A stretch of DNA of 64,000 nt from Thermus amyloliquefaciens. GTDB lineage: Bacteria > Deinococcota > Deinococci > Deinococcales > Thermaceae. The notes under the pieces were generated by a model. That model had not been told where the DNA came from. It did no database searches and saw nothing but the letters and a program-made list of their open reading frames with translations. How positions within the stretch are numbered: the first letter of the stretch is position 1; each line of letters opens with the position of its first letter. This document shows, piece by piece, positions 41,569 to 52,032 of this stretch. Position numbers and translations under genes: made by a program. The stretch is taken from contig NZ_JQMV01000003.1 of the NCBI RefSeq assembly GCF_000744885.1, positions 1,116,001 through 1,180,000 of the forward strand, read 5' to 3'.

Positions 41569-42354
41569 TTAGCGGACCACTCCCCCCACCAGGCGCTGGA
41601 CCACCCGCCCTGCAAGGAGCAAAAGCCCATGGAGAATAGCCCCCGGCCTCGGGGGGTCCCCGGGCACGTAGACATCCACGGGCAGCACCTTATCCACGCC
41701 CCCCAGCACCTCCCGGCTCTCCGCAAAAACCCCGCCGGCTATGGCCTCGTTACCTACGGCCACCACCCCTTTGGGCTCCGGCATGGCCTGGTAGGTGCGT
41801 TCCAGGGCCTTGGCCATGTTCCGGCTCACGGGACCGGTGACCAGAAGGACATCGCCATGGCGCGGTGAGGCCACCACCTGGAAGCCAAAGCGGCCCATAT
41901 CGTTAAAGGGATTTCCCAAAAGGGCGATCTCGGAATCGGTTAGGCCCGTGTCCCCGGCGCTCACCTCGCGGAAGGCCAAGGTGGGGAGGGCCAGCTCGGG
42001 ACGGGGTGGGGGCGGGGGACCGGGGTCCAGGAAGACCCCCCGTTCCAGGTCCACCCGCTGGATTAGGTCCTCCCTTCGGGTCACGGCCACCTCCAGGGTC
42101 TTCATCTCCCCCACGGCCTCCGGGTACCCAAGGGCGCACCTCCCACACCCCACGCAGCGGGCCAGGTCCAGACCAAAAACCCCTTCTTCTTCAAAGAAGG
42201 CCCCGCTGGGGCAGACCTTCACCAGGCCCTCCCGGGCTTCCTGGGAAAGCCCCTGGGGTTTCAAAAGAGGATACCCAAAGGCATGCGGGGGCACCTGGAG
42301 GATCTCCTCAAGGGCCCGGGCCAAAACCCCCATCCTGAACGTGCGCAAAATCAT
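41569..42354 (-). CDS. Ehr-complex small subunit: ferredoxin domain fused to NuoB/HyfI-like domain without N2 cysteines
   Basis: 261 residues. The N-terminal part has just four Cys (C48 in VCPSGAF; C67, C70 and C73 in CVGCGRC), enough for one [4Fe-4S] cluster. The second half follows the NuoB/HyfI fold (MGRFGFQVVASPRHGDVLLVTGPV, YVPGDPPRPGAILHGL), but the cluster-N2 cysteines are all gone: the CxxC region reads TGLTDSEI, the third position GNEA and the fourth GDPP. It therefore cannot bind the proximal cluster. Last gene of the Hyf-like operon, nine bases after the large-subunit gene. Confidence 0.85.
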   Translation of the reverse strand: MILRTFRMGVLARALEEILQVPPHAFGYPLLKPQGLSQEAREGLVKVCPSGAFFEEEGVFGLDLARCVGCGRCALGYPEAVGEMKTLEVAVTRREDLIQRVDLERGVFLDPGPPPPPRPELALPTLAFREVSAGDTGLTDSEIALLGNPFNDMGRFGFQVVASPRHGDVLLVTGPVSRNMAKALERTYQAMPEPKGVVAVGNEAIAGGVFAESREVLGGVDKVLPVDVYVPGDPPRPGAILHGLLLLAGRVVQRLVGGVVR

Positions 42355-42362
42355 CCTACCCC

Positions 42363-43673
42363 CTAAAGATCGTTCCCCGCATAGGAGAGGTCAAAGGACT
42401 TGTTGCAAAGAGGGAAGTCGGGCAGGCCTTCCCCCCGCACCGCCAGCTCCAGGGCCCGCCAGTTCTTGAAACTGGGGTCCACCCCCTCCGCCTGGACCAC
42501 CCTGCCCCCCTCCAGCCGGACGAACCAAAACACCTCCCCCCGGCCCGCCTCCACCCGGGCCATACCCTCCCCGTCCCCGGCTTCCACCTCCACCGCCAGA
42601 GGCCCTTCGGGGCGTTGCCGCAGAAAGCGCTGGGCAAGCTCCAAGGCCTGCAGGGCCTCCTCCGCGTACACCTGGGCCCGGGAAAGGACATCCCCCCCCT
42701 GGCGCACCACGGGGACAAAGGCCGGGTAGAGGGCATCGTCCTGCCGCAGGTCCCGTACCACCCCACTCGCCCGGGCCGTGGGCCCCACGAAGCCCAAGGC
42801 CAGCGCCTCCACCCGCCGCACCACCCCCACGTAGCGCATGCGGTCCAGGACCTGGGGGTGCTTAAGAAGCCGGGGCAACAGCCAAGCCAGCTCCCTTTTG
42901 TACCGGGAGAGGGCCTCGAGGTCCGGCCCACCCTCCCGCCACACCCCCCCCACCCGGATGAAGTTGCGGCCGTAGCGGTGGCCGGTCAGGCGGTCTATCT
43001 CCCCTTGGAGCAGGGCCCGCACCCGACCCACCTGGGTGGCCCCATAGGCATAGCCGATATCGGTGAAAAGGCCCGCCAGGCGGCCCAGGTGACCGAAAGC
43101 CCGCTCCAGCTCCAAGGCCGCCCGACGCAGGTACCGCGCGCGGGGAGGCACCTCAACCCCTAGCGCCCCCTCCCAAGCCTCCGCAAAGGCCAGGGCGTGG
43201 GCCACAGGCTCGCTCCCCGCCCGCTCGGCCAGGAGCAGGGCCGCCTCCGGACCCTTTCCCGGCATGATCCCGAGGAGGCCCCGGTGCTGGTAGCCCAGGC
43301 GGATCTCCAGGTTAAGGATCCGCTCCCCAAGGACGCTAAAGCGAAAGTGGCCGGGCTCAATGATCCCTGCATGCACCGGCCCCACCGGCACCTCGTGCAG
43401 ATGGGGAAACTCCCGGAAGGCATAGGCAAGGTCGTGCCGCCTTAAAGGCTTTAGCCCGGAATGCCCCACCAACTGCCAACCCCTTTCCCAAAGGGCCCGT
43501 TCAAACCAATCCAGGGCGGGAAACTCCGAGGCCAGGCTGGGCAAACGCCTCCCCTGGCCCAGGGGAAAGGCCTCGAGGCCCCGCTGGCGCTCCACCAGCA
43601 AAAGCGCCCCCTCGCCGTAGGGGAAATAGGCCACGGGCCTGCCCTCCTGCAGGGCCTCCTTCACAGCCTCCAC
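42363..43673 (-). CDS. Ehr-complex large subunit (HyfG/NuoCD-like) lacking NiFe ligands
   Basis: 436 residues, with an N-terminal NuoC-like part (about 1-100) and a NuoD/hydrogenase large-subunit part. The block GPVHAGIIEPGHFRFSVLGE and the helix GYQHRGLLGIMPGK are typical. The first CxxC of NiFe hydrogenases is replaced (AERAGSEPVAHALA). The C-terminal DPCxxC is also lost: the tail has only C423, followed by NKSFDLSYAGNDL. No NiFe site is possible. This is the mark of Ehr (hydrogenase-related) complexes. The GTG start at 43673 overlaps the hyfF-like gene by 13 bases. Confidence 0.85.
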   Translation of the reverse strand: MEAVKEALQEGRPVAYFPYGEGALLLVERQRGLEAFPLGQGRRLPSLASEFPALDWFERALWERGWQLVGHSGLKPLRRHDLAYAFREFPHLHEVPVGPVHAGIIEPGHFRFSVLGERILNLEIRLGYQHRGLLGIMPGKGPEAALLLAERAGSEPVAHALAFAEAWEGALGVEVPPRARYLRRAALELERAFGHLGRLAGLFTDIGYAYGATQVGRVRALLQGEIDRLTGHRYGRNFIRVGGVWREGGPDLEALSRYKRELAWLLPRLLKHPQVLDRMRYVGVVRRVEALALGFVGPTARASGVVRDLRQDDALYPAFVPVVRQGGDVLSRAQVYAEEALQALELAQRFLRQRPEGPLAVEVEAGDGEGMARVEAGRGEVFWFVRLEGGRVVQAEGVDPSFKNWRALELAVRGEGLPDFPLCNKSFDLSYAGNDL

Positions 43674-45007
43674 AGCACCACCTCCAGCGCCTTAAACACC
43701 CCCACCGGGGGAAAGACCCCAAGAAGAAGCAGCAGAAAAAGCAAAAGCCAAAGCAGCCAAAGGTCCCATCCCCTTCCCCCTATGGGCTTGCCCTGGCCAA
43801 ACCCCATCTGGGCCATGGGATAAAGGAGGCCCGCAAAGGCCAGCCCGAGCCCCACCAGATAGCTAACCCCCAGCCAGGGCCATTGCATGGCCACCTCCAC
43901 CGCCTTGAACTCGGCGAAAAACAGGGGAAAGGGCGGAAGCCCCCCCAGGGCCGCCAGGGAGAGGACGAAGGGCACCCCTAAGGCAGGGGTATGCAGGACC
44001 AAGCCCCCTACCCGCCCCACCTCCTTGGCATGGCTTAGGGCCAGAATCCCACTGGCTCCCAAAAACGCCAAGGTCTTGCTCAAAGAGTGGGCCAGGGTGT
44101 GAAAAAGGGCAAGCCAGGGAAGGCCCAGGCCCAGGGCAAACACAGCAAGGCCCATGTGCTCCATGCTGGAATAGGCCAGAAGCCTCTTGTACTCCTTTTG
44201 GCCAAATAGGAAAAGGGCGGCAAACACCAGGCTCAATAACCCGAAGGCCAAAAGGAGGCCAGAGGCAAAGGGGAAAAGCCCCGCCGCCTGCATGAGGGCG
44301 GTGTAGCGCAACAGGGCGTAAAAGGCCACGTTGAGCAGGGTTCCCGAAAGAAGCGCAGAGGCCGGCCCCGGGGCCTCGGCATGGGCATCCGGGAGCCAGG
44401 CCTGCATGGGGAAAAGCCCCACCTTGGTACCGAAGCCCACCAGGAGGAGGGCGAAGGCCACCTTAAGCCCCTCGGGATTGGCCGTCGCCACCAGGGACCG
44501 GACTTCCCCCCAGTCCAAGGTGGCCCCACCCACCAGGGCGTACACCAGGATGACCCCGATGAGCCCCATGGCGATGCCCACACTGCCCAGCATGAGGTAT
44601 TTCCAGGTGGCCTCGAGGGCCCTTGCCCCGCCCTTGTGGTAGACCAGAAGGGCCGAGGCCAGGGTGCTGCCCTCCACAAACACCCAAAGCATCCCCAGGT
44701 TGTGGGCCAGGTAAGCCCCGTGGGCCGAGGCCAGGAAAAGGGCACCCGCCCAATAGAACCGCCAGGCCTCCTCCCGGGGAAAGTAGCCCCGGGCAAACAG
44801 GGCCACCAACCCGTAGATCAGGTCCGTCAGGAGGAGGTAAAAGAGCCCTACCCCATCCAATCGGAAAGGGCCCGCCGCCCTGCCCAGGAGGAAAGGGGCA
44901 AGGAGCAAGCTCAGAACGGGAACCAAAACGGAAAGCCGCACCAGCAGGGGGGTTTCCCTGCGGGCCAAGAAGACCAACAAGGGCAAGAAAACCAGAAGGT
45001 ACAGCAC
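43661..45007 (-). CDS. HyfF-like antiporter-type membrane subunit
   Basis: 448 residues, about 14 membrane helices, NuoL/M/N-Mrp family. The proton-path residues are kept: Glu in WVFVEGSTLASALLV and Lys in GFGTKVGLFPMQAWLPDAHAEA; the discontinuous helix HTLAHSLSKTLAFL is also present. It should translocate H+ or Na+ as part of the hydrogenase-4-like membrane arm. It lies two bases after the hyfE-like gene. Confidence 0.9.
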   Translation of the reverse strand: MLYLLVFLPLLVFLARRETPLLVRLSVLVPVLSLLLAPFLLGRAAGPFRLDGVGLFYLLLTDLIYGLVALFARGYFPREEAWRFYWAGALFLASAHGAYLAHNLGMLWVFVEGSTLASALLVYHKGGARALEATWKYLMLGSVGIAMGLIGVILVYALVGGATLDWGEVRSLVATANPEGLKVAFALLLVGFGTKVGLFPMQAWLPDAHAEAPGPASALLSGTLLNVAFYALLRYTALMQAAGLFPFASGLLLAFGLLSLVFAALFLFGQKEYKRLLAYSSMEHMGLAVFALGLGLPWLALFHTLAHSLSKTLAFLGASGILALSHAKEVGRVGGLVLHTPALGVPFVLSLAALGGLPPFPLFFAEFKAVEVAMQWPWLGVSYLVGLGLAFAGLLYPMAQMGFGQGKPIGGRGWDLWLLWLLLFLLLLLGVFPPVGVFKALEVVLWRL

Positions 45008-45009
45008 CC

Positions 45010-45639
45010 CTACCCCCTTAAGGAACGCATCCTCGCCGTGTCCACGTGCCCCATCTCACCCTTGATGCGGAAGATAAGGATCCCCGCCAAGAACACGGCG
45101 GCAAAAGCATCCAAGGCCACCCCCAACTCCACGAAAAGGGGAAGGCCGTGGCTCTCCGAAAGGGCCATGAGGAAAACCCCATTCTCTAGCGCCAGAAAAC
45201 CCAAAACCTGGCTGATCGCCTTTTTTCGGCTCACCATGGAAAGAATCCCCAAAAGGACCAGGGCCAAGGCCACGGGCACCCCCTGGGGCAAGGGAGCCTC
45301 GGGGAGGACAAAGGCCTCGCCCACCCGGAAGGCCAAGGCGGTGAGAAGCCCCGCCAAAAGGAGGGAGAGGGAAACGGACAAGTACCCCTCCACCTCGTGG
45401 CTCACCTCGAGGCGGTCTACAAGCCAGAACAGGTACCAGGGTATCAGGACCCCCTTCACGGCGAAGAGGGCTAGGCCCGCCAAGATGAAGTGCGCCTCAC
45501 CTCCCGCAAGCTCAAAGGAAACCAAGGCCAAGAGGATGTTCTGCAGGGCGTAGAGCCGGATGATGGCGTCCAGGCTACGGCGGCTCACCATCAGGAAGCC
45601 TGTGGCCAGAACGGCTAAGACCAAGGTTAGAAGCGCCAT
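45010..45639 (-). CDS. HyfE-like membrane subunit
   Basis: 209 residues with about six membrane helices. It begins MALLTLVLAVLATGFLMVSR and has GILSMVSRKKAISQVLGFLALENGVFL, the conserved NuoK-like block with Glu in a membrane helix, as in HyfE. It overlaps the preceding hyfC-like gene by 13 bases. Part of the ion-translocating arm. Confidence 0.9.
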   Translation of the reverse strand: MALLTLVLAVLATGFLMVSRRSLDAIIRLYALQNILLALVSFELAGGEAHFILAGLALFAVKGVLIPWYLFWLVDRLEVSHEVEGYLSVSLSLLLAGLLTALAFRVGEAFVLPEAPLPQGVPVALALVLLGILSMVSRKKAISQVLGFLALENGVFLMALSESHGLPLFVELGVALDAFAAVFLAGILIFRIKGEMGHVDTARMRSLRG

Positions 45640-46481
45640 ATCGCCCCCAAAAGCGCCAACACCCCGAAAAGGGTGTTGTAGGAGAGAAAGTCGGGAAGCC
45701 GGAGGTAGCGAAGCTTTACCCCGTAGGTCTCCAGGTAAGCCAGCGCCAAGATCCAGGCCCCCACCACCCCCAGGAAGACCAGGGGCTTAGGCCCCGGCAA
45801 CAACAAGGACATCAAGCCGGCGTAAAAGAGCATCTTCAGCGAGCCGGCCAGCTCGTACAAGGCCAGAAGGGGCCCGCTATGGTCCAGGAGCTGGGCCTCG
45901 TGGATCATGGTGAGCTCCAGGTGCGTGGTGGGGTCGTCCACCGGCATCCTGGCTCCCTCGGCCAGGAGGGCCAGGGCCAAGGAGGCCAGGGCCAGCAGCA
46001 ACACCAAGCTGTTTTCCACCCCAAGTTGGGGCAGGCCGCTCAGGGAAAACCCCTCCCCCAGAAGGACCACCCCCGCCAAGGCCATGAGGGTGCCCGGTTC
46101 CGCTAACACCGTGACCACACCCTCCCGGTAACTTCCCTGGGCTCCAAAAGCGCTACCCGCATCCAAAGCGGCCAACATTTGAAAAAAGCGGCCCAAGCCC
46201 AGCAGGTAGAGGGCGAGGAGAAAATCCCCTTTAAAGGCCAAACCGGGAAGCACGGGCAACAAGGCCAAGGCGCCCAGGGCCCCCAGTAGGGCCATGATGG
46301 GCCCGAGGAGGAAAAGGGGGGTGGTGGGGTAAGGCGCCACCCAGACCTTACGCCCGAGCTTGGCCAGGTTCCGGTATTCCAGGAGGGGGCTGGGCCCCTG
46401 CCGATGGGTAAGCCTGGCCTTCAACCACTTGAGGGTTCCCGAGAAGAGGGGAGCCAAAAGGAGGGCCAAGAGTGCCGTCAT
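45627..46481 (-). CDS. HyfC/HycD-like (NuoH-type) membrane subunit
   Basis: 284 residues, about eight helices. It links the membrane arm to the peripheral arm. NuoH-type blocks include RQGPSPLLEYRNLAKL, ALDAGSAFGAQGSYREG, LLAEGARMPVDDPTTHLELTM (acidic loop) and ETYGVKLRYLRLPDFL. ATG 46481 overlaps the stop of the hyfB-like gene (ATGA). Confidence 0.92.
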   Translation of the reverse strand: MTALLALLLAPLFSGTLKWLKARLTHRQGPSPLLEYRNLAKLGRKVWVAPYPTTPLFLLGPIMALLGALGALALLPVLPGLAFKGDFLLALYLLGLGRFFQMLAALDAGSAFGAQGSYREGVVTVLAEPGTLMALAGVVLLGEGFSLSGLPQLGVENSLVLLLALASLALALLAEGARMPVDDPTTHLELTMIHEAQLLDHSGPLLALYELAGSLKMLFYAGLMSLLLPGPKPLVFLGVVGAWILALAYLETYGVKLRYLRLPDFLSYNTLFGVLALLGAIWRF

Positions 46482-48132
46482 AGCAAAACCACCCCCAGCA
46501 CCACCACCAGGGCAAGGAGCTGCAGGAGAAGGTAAAGGTGCAGGCTTCCCGACTGAAGGGTCTGCACCAAGGCCGCAAGCCGGCCATAGGCCCGCCCCAG
46601 GAGGGCGTATACCCCGGCCAGGGGTTCCTCCAAGCGGGGGTACTCCCCCACCCGGAGGCGAAGAAAGGGGAAAAGGCGCAAGGCCGGTTCGGCAAAACCC
46701 AGGCCGTTGGGTTGCATCCTGGGGGTCAGGGGCTGGAAGCCGCAGTCCCAGGTGCCGTAGGCCCGATGGGGCATCCGCTGAACCCCACGGTAGAATGCAC
46801 CGGCCAAAAGGCCAAGGAGGACCAAGAGAAGCCCGTTGGGGTAGGTGGGGACCCTCAGGGGGTCCAACACCACCCCAGGGGCCAAGGCCAAAAGGAGGAG
46901 AAGCCCTGCCAAGGTGCCAAGCCCCAGGCGCATCCCCTTGGTCCAAAAGAGCCCCGCCTCGCCTCGAGGCAACCCCAAAAAGGCCAGCCCGAAAAGGCGC
47001 ACGTAAAAGTAAAGGGCCAAGGCCCCCACCAAAGCCAAGGCCCCGGCGGCCAAGGGCACCAAGAAAGTCCCCTGCAAAAAGCCTTGGTAAAGCTGCCACT
47101 CCGCCAGAAAAACCGGACCCGGAGGCAGGCCCGCCCCCACCCCCATGCCCCACAAGGCCAGGGCTCCAAGCTCAGGGGCCTTGCGGAAAAGCCCACCCAG
47201 GTGGGAAATTCGCCGCTCCTCCAGGGCGCCTGCCCCCAGGAAAAGAAGCCCTTTGAACAGGGCATGGGCCACCTGGTGGAGGAAGAAGGCCCCCAAGAGC
47301 AAGGGGGAAGGCTTAAGAAAATACGCCCCCAAAGCGGAAAGCATGAGGCCCAGGTTTTCCACGCTGGAATAGGCCAAAGCCCCCTTCAGGTCCTCCTCCC
47401 CCAGACCCCGCACCAGGGCATACACCGCGCCCAAAAGCCCCAAAAGAACCAAGGCCCATCCCACCCAAGGCGGGGGTGGACCAAACCAGTACTGGGACTG
47501 GTACAACCCCAGAAGGCCCAGTTTGGTCATGGCCCCAGAAAGCAGGGCCGAGACCGGGCTGATGGCCACCGGGTGGGCTTGGGGCAACCAGGCGTGAAAG
47601 GGGAAGAGGGCCGCCTTCACCCCAAAGCCCAAAAGAAGCCCCGCCCAGACCCAATCGGTCCCCAGGTATCCGTGCCCCAGGAAGGCCAGGTAAAGCCCAA
47701 TGCCGGAAAGCCGGCTCGCCAGGAAAAAGGCCCGGGCCCCCACCAGGGCGCCCGGCCCCTCGAGGGCGATCAGCAGGTAGCCCAAAAGGGCCATCCCCTC
47801 CCACAAGAAGAGGAAGCCGAACCCTGGGGAGGCCAGGGCCACCCCCGCCATGGTCGCCAGGAAAAGGGGAAAAAGAAGGCCATAGAGGTGCGCCTTACGG
47901 GGGTGATGGGCTAGATAGGGGGGAAGGTAGGGAACCAGGCCCAGGGTCAGGGCTCCCAGGAGGAGGAGGTAGAGGTAAGGAGCGCCCCATCCCCAAGCCC
48001 AACCCACCCCCCCAGCGCCACCCACGCCAGGCCCGCCAAACCCAGGGAGAGGGAAAGCCCCCCAAAACGCCAGGGGGTTGCAGCGAAAACCAGGGCCAAG
48101 CCCAAGGGCAAGAAGGTCCAAAGGGGGCTCAT
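46478..48132 (-). pseudogene. HyfB-like antiporter-type subunit, one-base frameshift near the N-terminus
   Basis: The gene starts at ATG 48132, overlapping the arsR stop (ATGA). The first 47 residues (MSPLWTFLPLGLALVFAATP...) are in one frame. At the GGGG run (47994-47991) the frame must move by one missing base to continue into YLYLLLLGALTLGLVPYLPP and the rest of a complete 540-residue HyfB/NuoL-like protein. That part has Glu in FLFLWEGMALLGYLLI, Lys in GFGVKAALFPFHAWLPQAHP and many helices. One extra G would make the gene intact. It is either a genuine frameshift or a sequencing error. Confidence 0.8.
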
Positions 48133-48458
48133 GCTTCCTCCCTTAGGGAGTCCAGGCGCTCCCTCTCCGCCTCGAGGTGGCGTTCAAAGATCCGCCGCCC
48201 CAGGTCCAAGAAGGCGTAGACCTCCGGATCCCGGGTGCGGTAGTAGACCATCTGCCCCTCCCGCCTGGCCTCCACCAAGCCCCGCTCCCGGAGCAGGGCA
48301 AGCTGCCTAGAGAGCAAGGACTGCTCCACCCCAAGCTCCCGCTGGAGGGCGGACACGCTCCTTTCGCCTTCCCTTAAAGCGTCCAGGATGGCCAGGCGTA
48401 AGGGATGGGCCAGGGCCTTGAAAAAGGCGGCCTTATAGCGGTGTAGGGCGCTTGGCAT
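48129..48458 (-). CDS. ArsR-family winged-helix repressor
   Basis: 109 residues. FKALAHPLRLAILDALREGE, the recognition helix region VEQSLLSRQLALLRERGLVEARREG and the wing MVYYRTRDPEVYAFLDL are typical. It has no Cys, so it is not a classical thiol-metal sensor; the inducer is unknown. ATG 48458 follows AAGGAGGTGT, an excellent ribosome binding site. It heads the Hyf-like operon and overlaps hyfB, so it most likely controls that operon and itself. Confidence 0.9.
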   Translation of the reverse strand: MPSALHRYKAAFFKALAHPLRLAILDALREGERSVSALQRELGVEQSLLSRQLALLRERGLVEARREGQMVYYRTRDPEVYAFLDLGRRIFERHLEAERERLDSLREEA

Positions 48459-49961: not shown

Positions 49962-51109
49962 CCTGCGAACCCCCGATGGGCCAAGGTCAGCCCGAAGGGC
50001 TGCATTGCGGGCTCAAAGCGCGGGGCCTAGGAGGTAAAGCATGGCCAAGGTTAGGCTGGAGCACGTTTGGAAGCGCTTCGGCAAGGTGGTGGCGGTCAAG
50101 GACTTCAACCTGGAGACCGAGGACGGGGAGTTCGTGGTCTTCGTGGGGCCCTCGGGCTGCGGCAAGACCACCACCCTGCGCATGATCGCTGGCCTCGAGG
50201 AGGTCTCCGAGGGCCACATCTACATCGGCGATCGCCTGGTGAACGACGTGCCCCCCAAGGACCGGGACATCGCCATGGTCTTCCAAAACTACGCCCTCTA
50301 CCCCCACATGAACGTCTATGAGAACATGGCCTTCGGCCTGCGCCTGAGGCGCTACCCCAAGGACGAAATCGACCGGCGGGTGAAGGAGGCCGCCCGCATC
50401 CTCAAGATCGAGCACCTCCTGAACCGTAAGCCCCGGGAGCTTTCCGGCGGCCAGCGCCAGCGCGTGGCCATGGGCCGGGCCATCGTGCGCGAGCCCAAGG
50501 TCTTCCTCATGGACGAACCCCTTTCCAACCTGGACGCCAAGCTCCGGGTGGAGATGCGCGCCGAGATCGCCAAGCTGCAAAGGCGGCTTGGGGTCACCAC
50601 CATCTACGTGACCCACGACCAGGTGGAGGCCATGACCTTGGGCCACCGCATCGTGGTCATGAAGGACGGGGAGGTCCAGCAGGTGGACACCCCCCTAAAC
50701 CTCTACGACTTCCCCGTCAACCGCTTCGTGGCGGGCTTCATCGGAAGCCCCGCCATGAACTTCATCCGGGCCGGGGTGGAGGTGCAAGGGGATAAGGTGT
50801 ACCTGGCGGCCCCGGGTTTCCGGATCCGGGCCAACCCCGTCCTGGCCCAGGCCCTAAGGCCCCACGGGGGCAAGGAGGTCTGGATGGGCATCCGCCCCGA
50901 GCACCTGGGCCTGAAGGGCTACACGGTGATTCCCGAGGAGGAGAACGTCATCCGGGGCGAGGTGGAGGTGGCCGAGCCCCTGGGTGCGGAGACGGAGATC
51001 CACGTGAGCGTGGACGGCACGGTGTTGGTGGCCAAGGTGGACGGCCACGCCCCCGTCAAGCCCGGGGGGGCTTGCCTTGCAAGCCCTCTTGAGTTATGCA
51101 TTTCCCGAG

Positions 51110-51472
51110 ATGGGCAAGCGCGGTTTCGTCCGAAGGGAACCGAGGCCCAAGGAAGTCCTGGAGCTCTGCCTGTACCTGGCCCAAGAGGTGGCCCCACCCA
51201 CCCCCAAAGGCCACCGCGGCAGACCCTGGCGCTACACCCATGCCCTGTACCTGGCCCTCCTCCTCTTCCGCGCCTTCTACGGTCTCACCTACCGAGCCAC
51301 AGAGGCCCATCTCCAGGACCTCCTAGAGGGCCCCTTCCCCTCCCACCAGGCCCTGGCCGCCTATGCACAGAAACACCTGAACGAAGAGGTGCTGCAGGCG
51401 CTGCTGGAACGGCTGGTACAGGAAGTGGAAGCCCGGCTTCCCCAAGAGGAAGGGGAACCCCCCTTTTCTTGA
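51110..51472 (+). CDS. Transposase N-terminal part (orfA), IS copy 2
   Basis: The predicted protein is the same as orfA of copy 1 (638-1000); the two base differences in this part are silent. The stop overlaps the ATG of orfB in the same TGATG arrangement, which shows that the split reading frame is a normal feature of the element and not a chance mutation. Confidence 0.8.
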
Positions 51473-52032
51473 TGGACAGCACGGGGCTGGCCTACCGTAG
51501 CAAAGACACGGTGCTGCGCTGGCGCAGGGGGCAGGAGGAGCGGCGGATGCGGGGGCACAGCCGGCTTTTGGCCCTGGTGCGGTGGAGGAGGGGGCAGAAG
51601 CTTTTGGCCCCTTGGGGGGGCGGGGTGGGGCGGGCGTATGCCCCTGACCCGAGGCTTGGGGCGGGGGTGCTCCTGCGGTTTGGGCTGGGGGGCGGGGTGC
51701 TTTTGGGGGACGCGGGCTTTGACGGGAGGGAGGTGTGGGAGGTGGTGCGAGGGCTTGGGGTGTGGCCCCTGATCCGGCTGCGGGGAGGGGGAGAGGTGCG
51801 GGATGAGGTGCGGCGGGAGGTAGCGGCGAGGTGGGACGGGGAGGTGTATCGGAGGCGAGGGGTGGTGGAGGGGGTGTTTGGGGGGATGAAGACGCGTTTG
51901 CGGAGGGGTTATTTGCAGGAGCGGAAACCGCATACGGCCATGTGGCGGGCCTTTATGGAGTTCCTTGCCTACGGCCTGCGCATCCTGCTCACCCTGCTTC
52001 CCCCTCAGGGGGGGTACAAGGCGATTTACTAG
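51472..52032 (+). CDS. Transposase catalytic part (orfB), IS copy 2
   Basis: 186 residues with the DDE residues in MDSTGL, GDAGFD and [10 protein letters not shown]. It differs from copy 1 by one residue (Ala in place of Val in KLLAPWGGG). The frame is continuous with the upstream ABC ATPase reading frame, so an ATPase-transposase fusion could be made. Confidence 0.85.

Follow-up and report, generated by a model that had tools for sequence, protein, structure and literature searches.

An operon of Thermus amyloliquefaciens encodes a complex from which both cysteine pairs of the NiFe site and every cysteine of cluster N2 have disappeared, while the operon genes are under purifying selection and the ion path of the antiporter-like subunits is retained. 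The complex is an energy-converting hydrogenase-related (Ehr) complex, a relative of complex I and the group 4 hydrogenases. N2-less forms recur in several other phyla, and the complex may translocate ions without redox chemistry.

In the window, the 64,000-nucleotide stretch of DNA analyzed here, hyfB-C-E-F-G-I lie in this order on the minus strand at 41569-48132, and the genes overlap or adjoin. HyfB (46478..48132; Pfam Proton_antipo_M, E=7.5e-30) and HyfF (43661..45007; Pfam Proton_antipo_M, E=2.6e-49) are antiporter-like, while HyfC (284 aa, 45627..46481; Pfam NADHdh, E=3.9e-23) and HyfE (45010..45639; NCBIfam PRK11492, E=2e-23) are NuoH-like and NuoK-like membrane subunits, respectively. 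The hydrophilic part consists of the NuoD-like large subunit HyfG (436 aa, 42363..43673; Pfam Complex1_49kDa, E=1.6e-25) and of HyfI (261 aa, 41569..42354; Pfam Oxidored_q6, E=7.5e-23), a fusion of a NuoB-like small subunit with an N-terminal ferredoxin-like domain. Directly upstream of hyfB, the gene of an ArsR/SmtB-type winged-helix regulator (48129..48458, minus strand; NCBIfam HTH_metalloreg, 89 bits against a cut-off of 55) heads the operon; its product has 109 aa from the Met conserved among relatives and is Cys-free in this form. An earlier note on this DNA had described a full set of HyfB, C, E, F, G and I-like genes in one operon. Genes, order and coordinates agree with that description, but the hyfB frame is broken here: comparison of frames and DNA reveals a one-base deletion at 48007/48006, after the G7 run at 48013-48007, which puts the first 36 codons out of frame with the remainder. 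The deletion is absent from the five relatives compared and is either a sequencing error or a recent mutation. Elsewhere in the window, a MalK-type ABC ATPase frame at 50041-52032 (plus strand) continues into transposase DDE sequence (Pfam), probably through an insertion at the 3' end of the gene. The host genome (2.16 Mb) also encodes a separate, ordinary complex I, with NuoD at G000:C3:530754-531566.

Alignment of HyfG with MbhL and HycE reveals AGSE at the position of CGIC and DLSYAG at that of DPCxxC. Both NiFe CxxC motifs are thus absent, as the earlier note had claimed. Additionally, the position of the quinone-binding Tyr of complex I does not carry Tyr. The second NiFe Cys corresponds to residue 155 of HyfG, which is Glu throughout the Thermaceae and across much of an archaeal N2-less group described below, whereas N2-containing Ehr complexes mostly have Thr, Asn or Ser. 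Arg233, Arg301, Arg310 and Arg378 of HyfG are near-invariant in Ehr complexes with or without N2. The AlphaFold model of HyfG (pLDDT 91.5) finds its best PDB match in HycE (7z0s_E). No match to HypD was found in the host genome, which is 99.9% complete; control genomes were positive.

Similarly, the small subunit differs from MbhJ at each segment that carries N2 ligands: SCNGC is replaced by DTGLT, GACPTGG by GNEAIAGG and PGCPP by PGDPP. Based on alignment to MbhJ and HycG, the four ligand positions of N2, or of the proximal cluster, are occupied by Thr136, Thr139, Glu203 and Asp233. HyfI has only four Cys in total, C48, C67, C70 and C73. Across 20 Thermaceae small subunits these four never vary, and none of the N2 positions carries Cys, the second position being T, A or D and the fourth D or S. 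The claim that all N2 Cys are missing and that only these four remain is therefore borne out by the alignment and by all 20 copies. The remaining Cys could bind one [4Fe-4S] cluster of N6b type: we take C48-P and the CxxCxxC motif to be the ligands with which a two-cluster ferredoxin binds its second cluster, the counterpart of N6b by comparison with NuoI. N6b is the cluster adjoining N2 in complex I. The proximal cluster of HycG sits where complex I has N2 (PMC9474812). The AlphaFold model of HyfI (pLDDT 96.4) superimposes on MbhJ and HycG in Foldseek with an rmsd of 1.0-1.2 Å.

Two observations could have overturned this description. N2 cysteines might be displaced but present; however, the sole four Cys of HyfI all belong to the ferredoxin motif. 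An adjacent subunit might supply the missing cluster, but among the 20 Thermaceae copies the complex has just one more conserved Cys, a lone one at the HyfB C-terminus, so no neighbor within the operon provides a second conserved Cys set; likewise, no extra gene beside the operon is shared.

The membrane arm, by alignment, is intact in its charged residues. HyfB retains Glu in TM5, Lys in TM7, Lys in TM8 and Glu in TM12, and HyfF retains Glu in TM5, Lys in TM7 and Glu in TM12, with Asn in TM8 as in E. coli HyfF. The antiporter-like subunits therefore keep the Glu and Lys of the ion path, as had been noted earlier. Moreover, the E-channel residues, namely the acidic loop residues of HyfC and the conserved Glu and Asp of HyfE, are retained. 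For every gene, HyfG and HyfI included, dN/dS lies at 0.04-0.28 in pairwise comparisons with up to six Thermus copies; the highest values belong to hyfB, with its first 36 codons out of frame in this genome. All operon genes are under purifying selection, which argues against decay.

The seven-gene order, with the ArsR-type gene first, recurs in 13 other Thermus operons and in copies from other Thermaceae genera, and the order is identical in G098, a genome of another family whose small subunit shares 64% identity. Every intact Thermaceae operon, and that of G098, begins with the ArsR-type gene; at 98 other loci this gene adjoins hyfB only six times, which makes it a weak clue to function. The neighborhood outside the seven genes varies between genomes, and a homologue of any kind is present in 15 of 27 Thermus genomes, a patchy distribution. 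In one Thermus genome (L047, 1746-2528), the operon is deleted save for a small-subunit fragment that seems to be fused to the beginning of the ArsR gene; this is a recent deletion. Two near-identical operon copies (L052 and L053) lie in opposite orientations on a single contig, G001:C2.

A scan of genome contigs with the large subunit confirmed Ehr complexes at no fewer than 580 places, and the best 80, which were listed, span many phyla. Most of the matches listed have N2 (CCCC) and lack NiFe ligands. Small-subunit searches covered Chloroflexota, Actinomycetota, Halobacteriota, Verrucomicrobiota and Deinococcota, the phylum labels being those of the seed loci. The resulting alignment comprises 188 small subunits, including nine NuoB from ordinary complex I, and all four N2 Cys are present in 124; this proportion is not a prevalence, as the window protein served as the seed of the searches. 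N2-less small subunits are also found in archaea, in Chloroflexota, Actinomycetota and Verrucomicrobiota, and in other families of Deinococcota, so that a Thermus-only oddity is rejected. The earlier claim that this branch had also lost its last electron carrier thus stands as to N2, the loss of which is a stable trait of the lineage, but "this branch" was too narrow.

The N2-less sequences fall into several groups. Group A comprises Thermaceae and G098. Group B, from archaea, Dehalococcoidia and others, has the same six subunits but neither the ferredoxin domain nor the N2 and NiFe ligands; D-x-D-N is nearly invariant at the N2 site of its 30 small subunits. No ferredoxin gene lies beside the operon in the group B loci inspected, and no redox cofactor was found in the complex. 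Such apparently cofactor-free six-gene operons are seen at L058, L061, L079, L080, L097, L253-L255, L259, L261 and L262, with L059 on a partial contig. Group C consists of six Chloroflexota complexes (L243, L245-L248 and L257) with both NiFe CxxC motifs intact and D-x-D/E-D/S at the N2 site; these would be hydrogenase-like complexes without a canonical proximal cluster, and HypD was matched in one of the six genomes. Group D is mixed (L244, L250, L251, L137 and L256, the last keeping two Cys), group E from Verrucomicrobiota reads S-E-E-W and is nested within N2-containing sequences, and group F is L078. One further locus, L173, has TCDD at the N2 positions and was left out of the trees.

To place these groups, trees of the kind the earlier note had called for were built, and in both the Thermaceae complex sits inside a group of complexes without NiFe ligands. 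On the large-subunit tree the N2 state needs seven changes, five of them forced by starred branches, and on a concatenated G+I+C+F tree with the ligand columns removed it needs six, all forced by well-supported branches; support in these quick searches is SH-aLRT only, and composition bias was flagged in both trees. The changes are read as losses because regain of four Cys is unlikely. The six forced changes of the concatenated tree do not support a single origin. The AU test does not reject a tree that unites groups A and B (p 0.32; p 0.615 when only the large subunit is used), and the count is therefore five or six. Collectively, these sequence comparisons indicate that N2 was probably lost five or six times.

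Asp or Glu occupies the third N2 position in four groups (A, B, C and E) and also in most of the group D members that have been stripped of N2, but not in group F. By dominant state it is acidic in five of six lineages, although neither Asp nor Glu is one base step from Cys. The corresponding p values, about 8e-6 with BLOSUM62-conditioned odds and 1.6e-4 with plain background, are post hoc, assume independent lineages and count the mixed group D (D3, A1, P3) among the acidic ones, and serve as a guide rather than a test.

Based on the sequences, the models and analogy with related machines, we give an even chance to the reading that the complex is a redox-uncoupled ion translocator in which the residual cluster is structural or gating. 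H+ or Na+ would cross the membrane without electron transfer at the N2 or NiFe site, through a regulated conductance or an antiporter. The hydrophilic subunits would form a cap whose conformation gates the membrane arm; a ligand bound in the former active-site pocket, or else the remaining N6b-like cluster, may determine that conformation. The acidic residues at the old N2 site may replace the negative charge of the cluster among Arg233, Arg301, Arg310 and Arg378 of HyfG; with these Arg contacts assumed from homology, charge replacement would keep the coupling pocket assembled. Alternatively, the old N2 site may hold a mononuclear metal. The strongest comparative support for the redox-uncoupled reading comes from the apparently cofactor-free group B: since it lacks the ferredoxin domain, the N2 and NiFe ligands and an adjacent ferredoxin gene, a redox reaction would not be essential to the architecture, and the lack of detectable Fe-S ligands favors a redox-independent role. 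In addition, antiporter modules isolated from complex I and placed in proteoliposomes conduct protons with no redox chemistry involved (PMC11496545).

The strongest objection to redox-uncoupled translocation is the residual cluster of Thermaceae itself, as the invariance of its Cys suggests that the cluster, and perhaps electron transfer, still matters. The complex might still be a redox enzyme in which ferredoxin or another donor passes electrons through the N6b-like cluster to a non-classical center, for example a mononuclear metal bound by the Thr, Glu and Asp that now occupy the N2 site, or directly to an organic acceptor within the pocket of the large subunit, and thereby still drives pumping. 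The near-invariance of D-x-D-N in the 30 small subunits of group B is what a metal site would be expected to show, and the six Chloroflexota complexes do combine NiFe ligands with the absence of N2. However, the variable second and fourth positions in Thermaceae offer no constant ligand set, the quinone position is without its Tyr, and one related clade is apparently cluster-free. Electron relays of formate hydrogenlyase space their clusters less than 14 Å apart (PMC9474812), a spacing that skipping N2 would presumably exceed. We thus regard a surviving redox enzyme as unlikely. Sequence does not discriminate among the three modes of action offered by the earlier note (an ion channel or antiporter, conformational signals, an unknown partner), but a partner encoded alongside is less likely, since no further gene is conserved in the operons.

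A lone cluster that never varies, in a complex otherwise free of redox centers, would also suit a redox or ligand sensor, in which the cluster or a small molecule in the pocket alters the cap, so that the complex serves mainly to regulate membrane potential or pH and does little net pumping. The constant position of the ArsR-type regulator at the head of intact Thermaceae operons fits this proposal, but its rarity beside hyfB elsewhere and its Cys-free conserved-start form do not, and we judge a sensor improbable. Finally, the patchy distribution, the lone fragment in L047 and the hyfB frameshift, which also counts against redox-uncoupled translocation, might indicate a former hydrogenase-like enzyme that is vanishing from the genus with no present function. 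The low dN/dS of every gene, the retained ferredoxin Cys and antiporter residues, the gene order held between families and the conservation of N2-less forms with acidic replacements in distant phyla make such decay very improbable.

More broadly, complex I-like machines may repeatedly have been turned redox-free, keeping their ion machinery and placing an acidic site where N2 had been, to become ion transporters driven or gated by an input other than electrons; we hold this generalization tentatively, at somewhat less than an even chance. If it is true, some lineages lost every cluster and represent a natural uncoupled complex I, with which control of the membrane arm by the hydrophilic arm could be probed. 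One of the central open questions of bioenergetics is by what means the redox end of complex I powers antiporter subunits that lie far away. A natural family that has an intact membrane arm and has been stripped of the redox end, apparently on several occasions and with acidic residues taking the place of N2, offers ready-made variants for studying electrostatic and conformational coupling. Moreover, the question of what Ehr complexes do becomes testable once they are sorted by cluster content: with N2, with one cluster or apparently with none.

Among known systems, the complex agrees with Ehr in that one operon encodes a Hyf/Mbh-type set of NuoB-, NuoD-, NuoH- and antiporter-like subunits, in the absent NiFe CxxC motifs and in its tree position. 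As the earlier note stated, the lack of NiFe ligands in Ehr is published, and the function is called unknown (PMC6349859, PMC10284858, PMC4378227, PMC12342949, PMC6728331). The Ehr complexes of Nitrospira (PMC10284858/PMC12342949), Sulfobacillus (PMC4378227) and Margulisbacteria (PMC6349859) share the subunit set and a large subunit free of NiFe ligands, and the Rv0081-Rv0087 locus of M. tuberculosis (PMC6728331), also an Ehr, likewise has an ArsR-type gene at its head. A report on Thermus scotoductus SA-01 (PMC3235269) lists the same operon behind an arsR gene, with no comment in that passage on the ligands. Whereas the Ehr papers mention the loss of NiFe ligands only, and most Ehr complexes sampled here retain N2, the Thermus lineage also lacks all N2 ligands. 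We found no open-literature paper describing this additional loss, although subscription reviews defining Ehr may mention it; Ehr and its NiFe-ligand loss are known.

The complex resembles hydrogenase-4 and formate hydrogenlyase (E. coli Hyf and Hyc; PMC9474812) in genes B, C, E, F, G and I, in the folds of the small and large subunits and in the antiporter residues. In contrast, the Thermus operon lacks the features of a group 4 [NiFe] hydrogenase, namely the four NiFe Cys and the proximal [4Fe-4S] Cys, as well as HyfA, HyfD and HyfH, and the genome lacks HypD. With respiratory complex I (Nuo/Nqo) it shares NuoB, NuoD, NuoH, NuoK and NuoL/M/N-type subunits; however, it is without N2, the quinone Tyr and the NADH module, and one cluster is possible at most. 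Multisubunit Na+/H+ antiporters of the Mrp type offer a possible mode of action, redox-free ion conduction by NuoL/M/N-type subunits, and the Glu of TM5, the Lys of TM7 and the charge of TM12 are conserved in the antiporter-like subunits here. Mrp has no hydrophilic arm or NuoH-like subunit, whereas the Thermus complex possesses both, the hydrophilic arm being folded and conserved.
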